A stretch of DNA of 64,000 bases, taken from NCBI RefSeq assembly GCF_008329965.1, contig NZ_CP036150.1, forward strand, positions 3,700,439 to 3,764,438, written 5' to 3'. Below are positions 16,324-17,577 of the stretch, piece after piece (position 1 is the first letter of the stretch; each line of letters begins with the position of its first letter). The DNA is from Oceanispirochaeta crateris (lineage in GTDB: Bacteria > Spirochaetota > Spirochaetia > DSM-2461). The translations under genes were made by a program, and so were the position numbers. Below the pieces are notes generated by a model. It had not been told where the DNA came from. It saw nothing but the letters and a program-made list of their open reading frames with translations, and did not search any database.

Positions 16324-16329
16324 AAAAAA

Positions 16330-16348
16330 CCTGCCCTTTTCGGGCAGG
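16330..16348. terminator. bidirectional terminator between M81 and hsp20 genes
   Basis: CCTGCCC, loop TTTTC, GGGCAGG. On the plus strand it is followed by CTATTTTTT; on the minus strand by eight T. It can therefore end both the ABC operon and the convergent small heat-shock operon. Confidence 0.88.
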
Positions 16349-16395
16349 CTATTTTTTACCTGATTTCACTCAGGCATTATATATAAACTGCTTCT

Positions 16396-16797
16396 TTAAC
16401 CTTTGACTTTGATTGCCAGAGGAGCAGGTTTCTCCTTGCGGAGAAGTTCCAGAGTCAACAGTCCGTTTTTCATCTCGGCCTTTATAGACTCCCTGTTCAG
16501 ATCTTCAGGTAGGACAAAACTTCTTTCAAATATCGTAATTTCCTCATCTTTTTTCTTTTTCCCCTTTTGCAGGGCCTTGATGGTCAACAGGTTTTCATTC
16601 ACTTGAATATCAAGGTCTTCAGAGGCAAATCCGGGTAGCTCTACGGTGAGAACAACACGGGATTCTTCATTTTCAACATGCACAAGCGGTTTTCGTGGTT
16701 CTGTATCTGTAGATATTGCTGTATTGAATATTCTTTCCATCTCTTTCCAGGGGTTTACTGTATACACAGGGTTTCTTCTTATTGCTAAATTAGTCAT
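16396..16797 (-). CDS. small heat-shock protein, Hsp20/alpha-crystallin family
   Basis: 133 residues. The alpha-crystallin domain runs from about residue 42: VVLTVELPGFASEDLDIQV, then NLLTIKA, FERSFVLPEDLNRE and the signature AEMKNGLLTLEL. It is an ATP-independent holdase that binds unfolding proteins. The C-terminus ends APLAIKVKG, which contains an I-x-V motif for oligomer contacts. It is 27 bases after the paralogue at 16825-17244 and shares its promoter; the two proteins keep the same ends and differ by an acidic insertion in the upstream copy. Confidence 0.93.
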   Translation of the reverse strand: MTNLAIRRNPVYTVNPWKEMERIFNTAISTDTEPRKPLVHVENEESRVVLTVELPGFASEDLDIQVNENLLTIKALQKGKKKKDEEITIFERSFVLPEDLNRESIKAEMKNGLLTLELLRKEKPAPLAIKVKG

Positions 16798-16824: not shown

Positions 16825-17244
16825 TTAACCTTTTACTTTAATTGTTCTAGGAGCAGGTTTTTCGTTCCGCGGTAAAATCAGGGTTAAAAGACCGTTCTTC
16901 ATTTCGGCTTCAAAGTTATCCCGATTCAGATCTTCTGGAAGAATAAAGCTCTTTTCAAAGGTCACTTCTTTTTCTTCCCGTATTTCATCCTTCGTTTCAT
17001 CTTTAATTTCTATTTTCTTAAATGCCTGAACCGTCAATAGATTCTCTTTCACCTGAATATCAATATCTTCAGGACCGAAGCCTGGTAATTCTGCTTTCAG
17101 GATCACTCTGCTCTCTTCATTCTTTATATCCACTACTGGCTGCCGTGGGGTTGGCTGAACCGGTTTATATAGAGAATCCCAGATTTTATCCATTTCTTTC
17201 CAGGGGTTGCCCTGAACTCTATTTCTTACGATCATATTTGTCAT
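16825..17244 (-). CDS. small heat-shock protein, Hsp20/alpha-crystallin family
   Basis: 139 residues. Same layout as its neighbour: VILKAELPGFGPEDIDIQV, NLLTVQAFKK, FEKSFILPEDLNRD and AEMKNGLLTLIL. A charged stretch (IEIKDETKDEIREEKEV) replaces the KGKKKKDEE of the paralogue. The C-terminal tail ends RTIKVKG. CTGGAGGT precedes ATG 17244. It is the first gene of a two-gene operon behind a sigma-54-type promoter at 17287-17304. Together the two may form hetero-oligomers, but this cannot be read from sequence. Confidence 0.93.
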   Translation of the reverse strand: MTNMIVRNRVQGNPWKEMDKIWDSLYKPVQPTPRQPVVDIKNEESRVILKAELPGFGPEDIDIQVKENLLTVQAFKKIEIKDETKDEIREEKEVTFEKSFILPEDLNRDNFEAEMKNGLLTLILPRNEKPAPRTIKVKG

Positions 17245-17286
17245 ATCTGTACCTCCAGATTTTTTTATTGTTTCTGATAATTACTA

Positions 17287-17304
17287 ATGCAATGTTCGTG
17301 CCAA
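17287..17304 (-). promoter_or_regulatory. sigma-54 (RpoN) promoter of the hsp20 operon
   Basis: On the minus strand the bases read TTGGCACGAACATTGCAT, an exact fit to the -24/-12 consensus TGGCACG-N4-TTGC. Transcription would start near 17277, leaving a leader of about 33 bases that contains GGAGG before ATG 17244. No heat-shock CIRCE element was seen in this region. Confidence 0.8.
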
Positions 17305-17458
17305 CTTTTGTTGATGAGGATTTAAATTGTTGTTAGGAAAGGGCTTAAATGAATTTTAAAAATATTGCCGACCGAATTTTTATATTCTTTCTTTTTTAGG
17401 ACTGATAGGATTTCTCTGGTATGGGTCTTTTTGAAACAAAACAAATATTCTTATATAG

Positions 17459-17500
17459 ATATGAATCATAATGACACAATGGTGTCTTTATGACTCATAT
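17459..17500. promoter_or_regulatory. 42-bp palindrome, candidate activator site upstream of the sigma-54 promoter
   Basis: Two 19-base arms around a 4-base centre (AATG), with 17 of 19 positions paired; the arms start ATATGAATCATAATGACAC. Its centre lies about 200 bases upstream of the predicted hsp20 start, where enhancer-binding proteins for sigma-54 usually bind. It is AT-rich and lacks a T-run, so it does not look like a terminator for the gene at 17578. The rest of 17305-17577 shows no gene. Confidence 0.6.
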
Positions 17501-17577
17501 TTTGTGCGGTTCTGTGAGTCAAAGGGCTTCAAATAGGATAAAATTTGGGTAAGATTACGGGTTTTTGCCAAAGATAT

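Follow-up and report, generated by a model that had tools for sequence, protein, structure and literature searches.

The window analyzed here is a stretch of 64,000 nucleotides from the genome of the spirochaete Oceanispirochaeta crateris (designated G000 below; 4.01 Mb in a single contig), and its element of interest is a predicted sigma-54 promoter in front of an operon of two hsp20 genes. An earlier note on this DNA had placed an exact match to the RpoN consensus before the two genes, and this was borne out; the note left the strand unstated, and its placement is correct on the minus strand. The operon comprises the following features.

17288..17304, minus strand: predicted sigma-54 −24/−12 promoter TTGGCACGAACATTGCA, exact consensus, conserved in 52/52 hsp20 loci of the class Spirochaetia
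16825..17244, minus strand: first hsp20 gene, 139 amino acids, Hsp20/alpha-crystallin (PF00011, E 2.7e-19), with GGAGG at 17256-17252
16396..16797, minus strand: second hsp20 gene, 133 amino acids, same operon, 27 nucleotides past the first (PF00011, E 2.3e-18)
16328..16350, minus strand: intrinsic terminator of the hsp20 operon, a hairpin with a 9-pair stem and a T run

The first and second products scored 69.6 and 66.6 bits against PF00011, for which the gathering score is 20.8. The box TTGGCACGAACATTGCA at 17304-17288 is followed by the ATG of the first hsp20 gene 43 nucleotides downstream, and its minus-strand letters read TTGGCACG-AACA-TTGCA. GG falls at 17302/17301 and GC at 17290/17289, spaced exactly as in −24/−12 promoters, and our definition of such a promoter (GG at −25/−24 and GC at −13/−12, at fixed spacing) agrees exactly with 17304-17288. 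From the position of the box, transcription is predicted to start at about 17277. The site is the single match without mismatches to TGGCACGN4TTGCW in the window and the best sigma-54 match there, with a score of 21.0, the maximum of the weight matrix (the runner-up scored 13.2). When up to two mismatches were allowed, the window held six matches against 5.2 expected, so weaker or degenerate single matches carry no weight. A scan of the whole genome (4.0 Mb) for this pattern, as the earlier note had proposed, returned two exact matches, and 105 at up to two mismatches as opposed to 45 for reversed-pattern controls.

Conservation of the box was assessed in 41 genomes of the class Spirochaetia, namely G000 and 40 relatives, many of them incomplete metagenome assemblies, which were searched with the first Hsp20. 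Homologs were found in 39 of the 41. A strong −24/−12 box lies upstream of hsp20 in all 30 loci fetched (scores 14.2-21.0) and in all 20 additional class loci, many of which are second hsp20 operons (scores 12.6-20.5). It also precedes the hsp20 gene of G038 and, in G000, a second hsp20 operon, which brings the count to 52 of 52 readable loci. Of the random 410-bp windows, 25 of 3072 and 18 of 1088 (1-2%) reached the lowest class score, and a chance −24/−12 match was rejected on the strength of the conservation across the class. The sigma-54 bases are kept in the class hsp20 loci, and the adjacent spacer diverges. In a named collection of genomes, partly the same ones, the box was seen at 22/22 spirochaete hsp20 loci, including that of Candidatus Marispirochaeta associata, and at 7/57 hsp20 genes of other phyla. 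Within Spirochaetota but outside the class Spirochaetia it was seen at 18 of 25 hsp20 loci, and for this reason the arrangement of box and hsp20 may be older than the class. The −24/−12 bases are thus retained in related spirochaetes, so that the lack of conservation named in the earlier note as a ground for refutation is not seen.

A separate observation concerns hsp20 genes of Bacteroidota (Dyadobacter, Larkinella; loci L231-L234, L237, L239, L241, L249, L252, L261, L276, and L283). Most of them have TTGGNAC...TTTGAA or TTTGAT, located 67-170 bp before the match, and this could be a sigma-54 promoter that has diverged.

The gene for sigma-54 itself, rpoN (PF04552), was found in 39 of the 41 class genomes, and the two without it are incomplete (71%). 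In G000 it is located at C1:3258262 (E 1.7e-55). The absence of rpoN, which had been named as grounds for abandoning sigma-54 control of hsp20, is hence not what the genomes contain, and the predicted control is supported by the maximal box score, the conservation of the box, and the presence of rpoN. The repressor HrcA (PF01628) was detected in none of the 41 genomes, while the same search was positive in 7 of 14 control genomes. A search of G000 for CIRCE gave nothing convincing, the sole CIRCE-like site having three mismatches. Control of hsp20 by HrcA and CIRCE was rejected on these two counts, in agreement with the earlier note. The absence of HrcA from all 41 genomes also touches on the regulation of dnaK and groEL in Spirochaetia.

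About 100-220 bp upstream of the hsp20 promoter, at 17422-17522 in the window, there is a cluster of palindromes of the form TGNGTCATNATGACNCA (17 bp).

17462..17478, no strand assigned: putative activator site (UAS), palindrome TGAATCATAATGACACA, one mismatch to TGNGTCATNATGACNCA
17481..17497, no strand assigned: second putative activator palindrome GGTGTCTTTATGACTCA, two mismatches, 19 bp from the first
17422..17438, no strand assigned: weak third putative activator palindrome TGGGTCTTTTTGAAACA, three mismatches, 40 bp from the first
17515..17522, plus strand: extra half-site TGAGTCAA, from the half-site scan

With up to three mismatches to TGNGTCATNATGACNCA, five places were found in the 64 kb, three of them in this cluster. 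The palindrome is formed by pairs of the half-site TGNGTCAT, of which the 300 bp before the class hsp20 boxes contain 105, compared with 25.8 +/- 4.9 in Markov shuffles; for exact half-sites the count is 25 against 1.3 expected. They are concentrated at 100-220 bp from the boxes. The sites recur at a spacing of 40 bp. At 18 other sigma-54 promoters there was no enrichment (12 half-sites, 14.6 expected).

Some of the other sigma-54 boxes deserve mention in their own right. Four in G000 (L024, L026, L030, and L031) precede genes for solute-binding, transporter, or secreted proteins, which adjoin four other genes for enhancer-binding proteins (EBPs; L009, L008, L010, and L011), and these promoters are without the palindromes described above. 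PspA-like genes with sigma-54 boxes occur in G000 (L120, G000:C1:2339671-2339687) and in G032 (L121 and L126), with a PspF-like EBP (L013, L099) beside or near them; together they form what is apparently a phage-shock-type system in spirochaetes.

The same palindromes were found in front of a second gene, which codes for a sigma-70-family protein of about 281 amino acids and was found behind sigma-54 boxes (G000, G035, G030, G032, and G038 were read). In G000 it occupies C1:996539-997381. The protein has regions 1.2, 2, 3, and 4; it scored 270.2 bits with the RpoS model (TIGR02394, equivalog), below the cut-off of 378.7, and 173.5 bits with the RpoH model, for which the cut-off is 323.1. Because the RpoS score is below the cut-off, we call the protein RpoS-like only. 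Orthologs with 54-93% identity are present in about 36 of the 41 class genomes, and wherever the upstream region was readable (29 of 29) the gene is preceded by a sigma-54 box, with scores of 10.4-21.0. Upstream of this gene, which provides an independent test of the hsp20-derived pattern, there were 81 half-sites as compared to 21.9 +/- 4.5, and 17 exact ones as compared to 1.0; two or more half-sites were found in 26 of 27 cases, and the 40-bp spacing is seen in both gene sets. Beyond what the earlier note proposed, the predicted promoter is class-wide and its putative upstream sites are shared with a sigma-factor gene. G000 has another sigma-70-family gene, L115 (G000:C1:1569442-1569458), with a sigma-54-like box, TTGGCATGGAAAATGCT, and without strong palindromes.

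A sigma-54 promoter has to be opened by an EBP, as the earlier note stressed, and the argument for one is strengthened by the shared upstream palindrome and by a candidate activator. G000 has 13 strong EBPs. The candidate among them (C1:1234357-1235757) is a response regulator with REC, Sigma54_activat (AAA+), and HTH_8 (Fis-type helix-turn-helix) domains and a GAFTGA motif. It was singled out through the genomes with the fewest activators: G035 (99% complete) has only one true EBP, with sites before hsp20 and the sigma gene; G030 (95% complete) likewise has only one, lacks hsp20, and has sites before the sigma gene; G038 has the candidate and hsp20 with sites, and no sigma ortholog. The ortholog of the candidate is the sole EBP common to these three genomes. 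It is identifiable in 36 of the 41 genomes (55-91% identity, or high-identity fragments), clearly apart from full-length paralogs at 46% identity or less.

In ten genomes from ten families the EBP gene is located 3.4-12.1 kb from the sigma gene. Immediately ahead of it lies a histidine kinase gene, within the gene order murG - cvpA - holB-like - kinase - EBP (the names murG, cvpA, and holB-like being our own reading of the open reading frames), which in G032 goes on with a dinG-like helicase gene, groES, and the RpoS-like sigma gene. In G000, G032, and G035 the EBP gene overlaps that of the kinase, and a kinase homolog is also present beside the EBP in G026, G027, G029, G037, and G038. Among NCBIfam models the EBP matched AtoC best and the kinase AtoS, neither score reaching the cut-off. 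In G008, a member of genus g4, the EBP ortholog (G008:C1:3659087-3660459) is frameshifted at residue 349, the sigma gene (G008:C1:790063-790908) is broken, and the first hsp20 operon has lost its upstream sites and kept its −24/−12 box. These losses fit a link between the EBP and the sites; an assembly error is also possible.

Expression of the two genes in a member of the same class has been reported. In Treponema denticola the hsp20 gene TDE1029 was induced 9.5-, 8.5-, and 6.7-fold, and the sigma-70-family gene TDE0937 2.8-, 21.8-, and 14-fold, by heat, oxygen, and osmotic downshift, respectively; groES is TDE0934, and no regulator above TDE1029 and TDE0937 was named (PMC2965109). In G058, a T. 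denticola-like genome of 2.8 Mb, groES is the neighbor of the orthologous sigma gene, to which each of the two published TDE0937 primers can be aligned with a single mismatch, and TDE0937 is for these reasons very probably the RpoS-like sigma factor studied here. The hsp20 gene of G058 retains its box, TTGGCATAAAAATTGCT. The TGNGTCATNATGACNCA palindromes are replaced by a different 30-bp palindrome, TTATAAGTCTATATTGAATATAGACTTATA, which precedes hsp20 in G058 and G070 and the RpoS-like sigma gene in G058 (L358:324 on the minus strand, L362:7901, and L314:1293, the last in G070). At up to five mismatches, about 0.65 Mb of Treponema-like sequence had it in front of hsp20 and the sigma gene and nowhere else, and a further 1.2 Mb held nothing nearer than seven mismatches. 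Through TTATAAGTCTATATTGAATATAGACTTATA, hsp20 and the sigma gene thus stay linked by a common site even as the site itself changes.

The best reading of these data, to which we assign a probability of roughly 80%, is a pathway from a kinase through an activator and sigma-54 to both hsp20 and the RpoS-like sigma gene. The histidine kinase would sense a stress, probably protein-damaging or general, and phosphorylate the EBP encoded next to it. Phosphorylated EBP would then bind the clustered TGNGTCATNATGACNCA palindromes as an oligomer and remodel the sigma-54 polymerase, opening both the hsp20 promoter and that of the RpoS-like sigma gene. Transcription of the hsp20 operon by sigma-54 RNA polymerase would constitute a direct arm, in which small heat-shock chaperones give immediate protection, and the second sigma factor with its wider regulon would constitute a cascade arm, in a class without HrcA.

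Several points weigh against this pathway. In the host organism it is predicted from sequence. The weight matrix is hand-made, and the palindrome was first derived from the hsp20 set, so that the sigma-gene set is the only independent test of it. The −12 element of the sigma-gene promoter in G000 and its nearest relatives is TTGTA, not TTGCA. With 13 EBPs in G000, the assignment of the activator there rests on orthology, and five genomes without an EBP ortholog (G001, G009, G013, G017, and G024; 71-90% complete) keep the box. In G058 the sigma box is degraded to TTAGCATAGTTTTTGCT with one half-site left, and a search of approximately 1.5 Mb of that genome did not turn up the EBP.

Some of these points would be accounted for if the sigma-54 promoter is real and hsp20 is activated by one of the other 12 EBPs of G000, for example one of the GAF-domain type. 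The number of EBPs in G000 and the five genomes just listed speak for such an activator, as does genus g4 (G008, G013, and G017), in which the EBP is frameshifted or missing and the sites are weak or missing while the box is kept. However, the candidate EBP alone co-occurs with the shared sites in G035, G030, and G038, and other sigma-54 promoters of G000, several of them beside their own EBPs, are without the palindromes. We consider activation by another EBP unlikely.

It is also rather improbable that the palindromes bind a separate stress factor, either an activator or a repressor, with the EBP opening the sigma-54 promoter in some other way. The EBP sites are known here only as sequence patterns, the T. 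denticola-like genome has its different 30-bp palindrome common to hsp20 and the sigma gene, and Borrelia rpoS requires an extra regulator, BosR, with the activator Rrp2 reported to be enhancer-independent (PMC3037356). The distance of 100-220 bp, the repetition, the dyad symmetry, and the 40-bp phasing are nevertheless typical of EBP enhancers, and the palindromes track sigma-54 promoters in genomes that have the candidate EBP alone. Finally, an incidental −24/−12 match, with a sigma-70-type or heat-shock sigma promoter driving hsp20, is very improbable even though the product of L115 could be RpoH-like, since the only sigma-70-like sequence before hsp20 is a 9/12 match at 17304-17277 that overlaps the sigma-54 box, is no better than chance, such matches in the region being fewer than in shuffles (2 vs 3.7), and it is the sigma-54 bases that are kept at every class locus amid a diverging spacer; the sigma-70 alternative raised in the earlier note was rejected accordingly.

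The proposed kinase-activator pathway can be compared with several known systems. In E. coli, the small heat-shock gene ibpB has a sigma-54 promoter as a single-species addition to sigma-32 control. The spirochaete genes resemble it in placing a small heat-shock gene under a predicted sigma-54 promoter, but in their case the promoter is found throughout the class, the genomes lack HrcA, and the enhancer motif is shared with a sigma-factor gene. Chaperone control by HrcA and CIRCE is likewise heat-shock gene regulation outside sigma-32, yet it is not available to these genomes, which have no HrcA, nor evident in the CIRCE-like site of G000. Control of chaperone genes by sigma-54 is usually an oddity; throughout Spirochaetia, a class that lacks HrcA, it is seemingly the norm. 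In the literature searched, mostly without subscription journals, we found no earlier account placing the hsp20 genes of spirochaetes under sigma-54, and hsp20 is unmentioned in the broad comparative study of sigma-54 by Francke et al. (PMC3162934).

The core stress response of T. denticola involves the same pair, hsp20 and the orthologous sigma gene, which are co-induced there, although the T. denticola-like genome differs from the host in its other shared palindrome and degraded sigma box. The EBP proposed here could be what regulates TDE1029 and TDE0937, whose co-induction is unexplained, and a specific wiring, with a kinase, an activator, an enhancer, and two targets, can now be put forward for the spirochaete stress response.

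The closest parallel is the Hk2/Rrp2-RpoN-RpoS pathway of Borrelia burgdorferi, where rpoS is turned on by sigma-54 together with an AtoC-like EBP (PMC3037356, PMC4014564, PMC2940757); Rrp2 was classed among the AtoC-like EBPs by Francke et al. (PMC3162934). The system predicted here would similarly use an AtoC-like response-regulator EBP, whose gene accompanies that of a histidine kinase, together with sigma-54 to switch on the gene for an RpoS-type sigma factor. It is set apart by its enhancer-like sites, Rrp2 being reported to act independently of an enhancer (Blevins 2009, as cited in PMC3037356), and by hsp20 as a second, direct target. Our literature search returned nothing on murG-cvpA-hk2-rrp2 synteny in Borrelia. 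We would give even odds to the idea that the virulence switch of Borrelia, Rrp2-RpoN-RpoS, goes back to a stress response of ancestral spirochaetes. In that response a single kinase-EBP pair would have acted through sigma-54 and a dedicated enhancer to fire both hsp20 and an RpoS-like sigma factor, taking the place of HrcA at the top of the hierarchy; the enhancer and the hsp20 arm would have been lost afterwards in Borrelia. Such a descent would give the RpoN-RpoS pathway of Borrelia, with its unusual independence of an enhancer, a possible origin.
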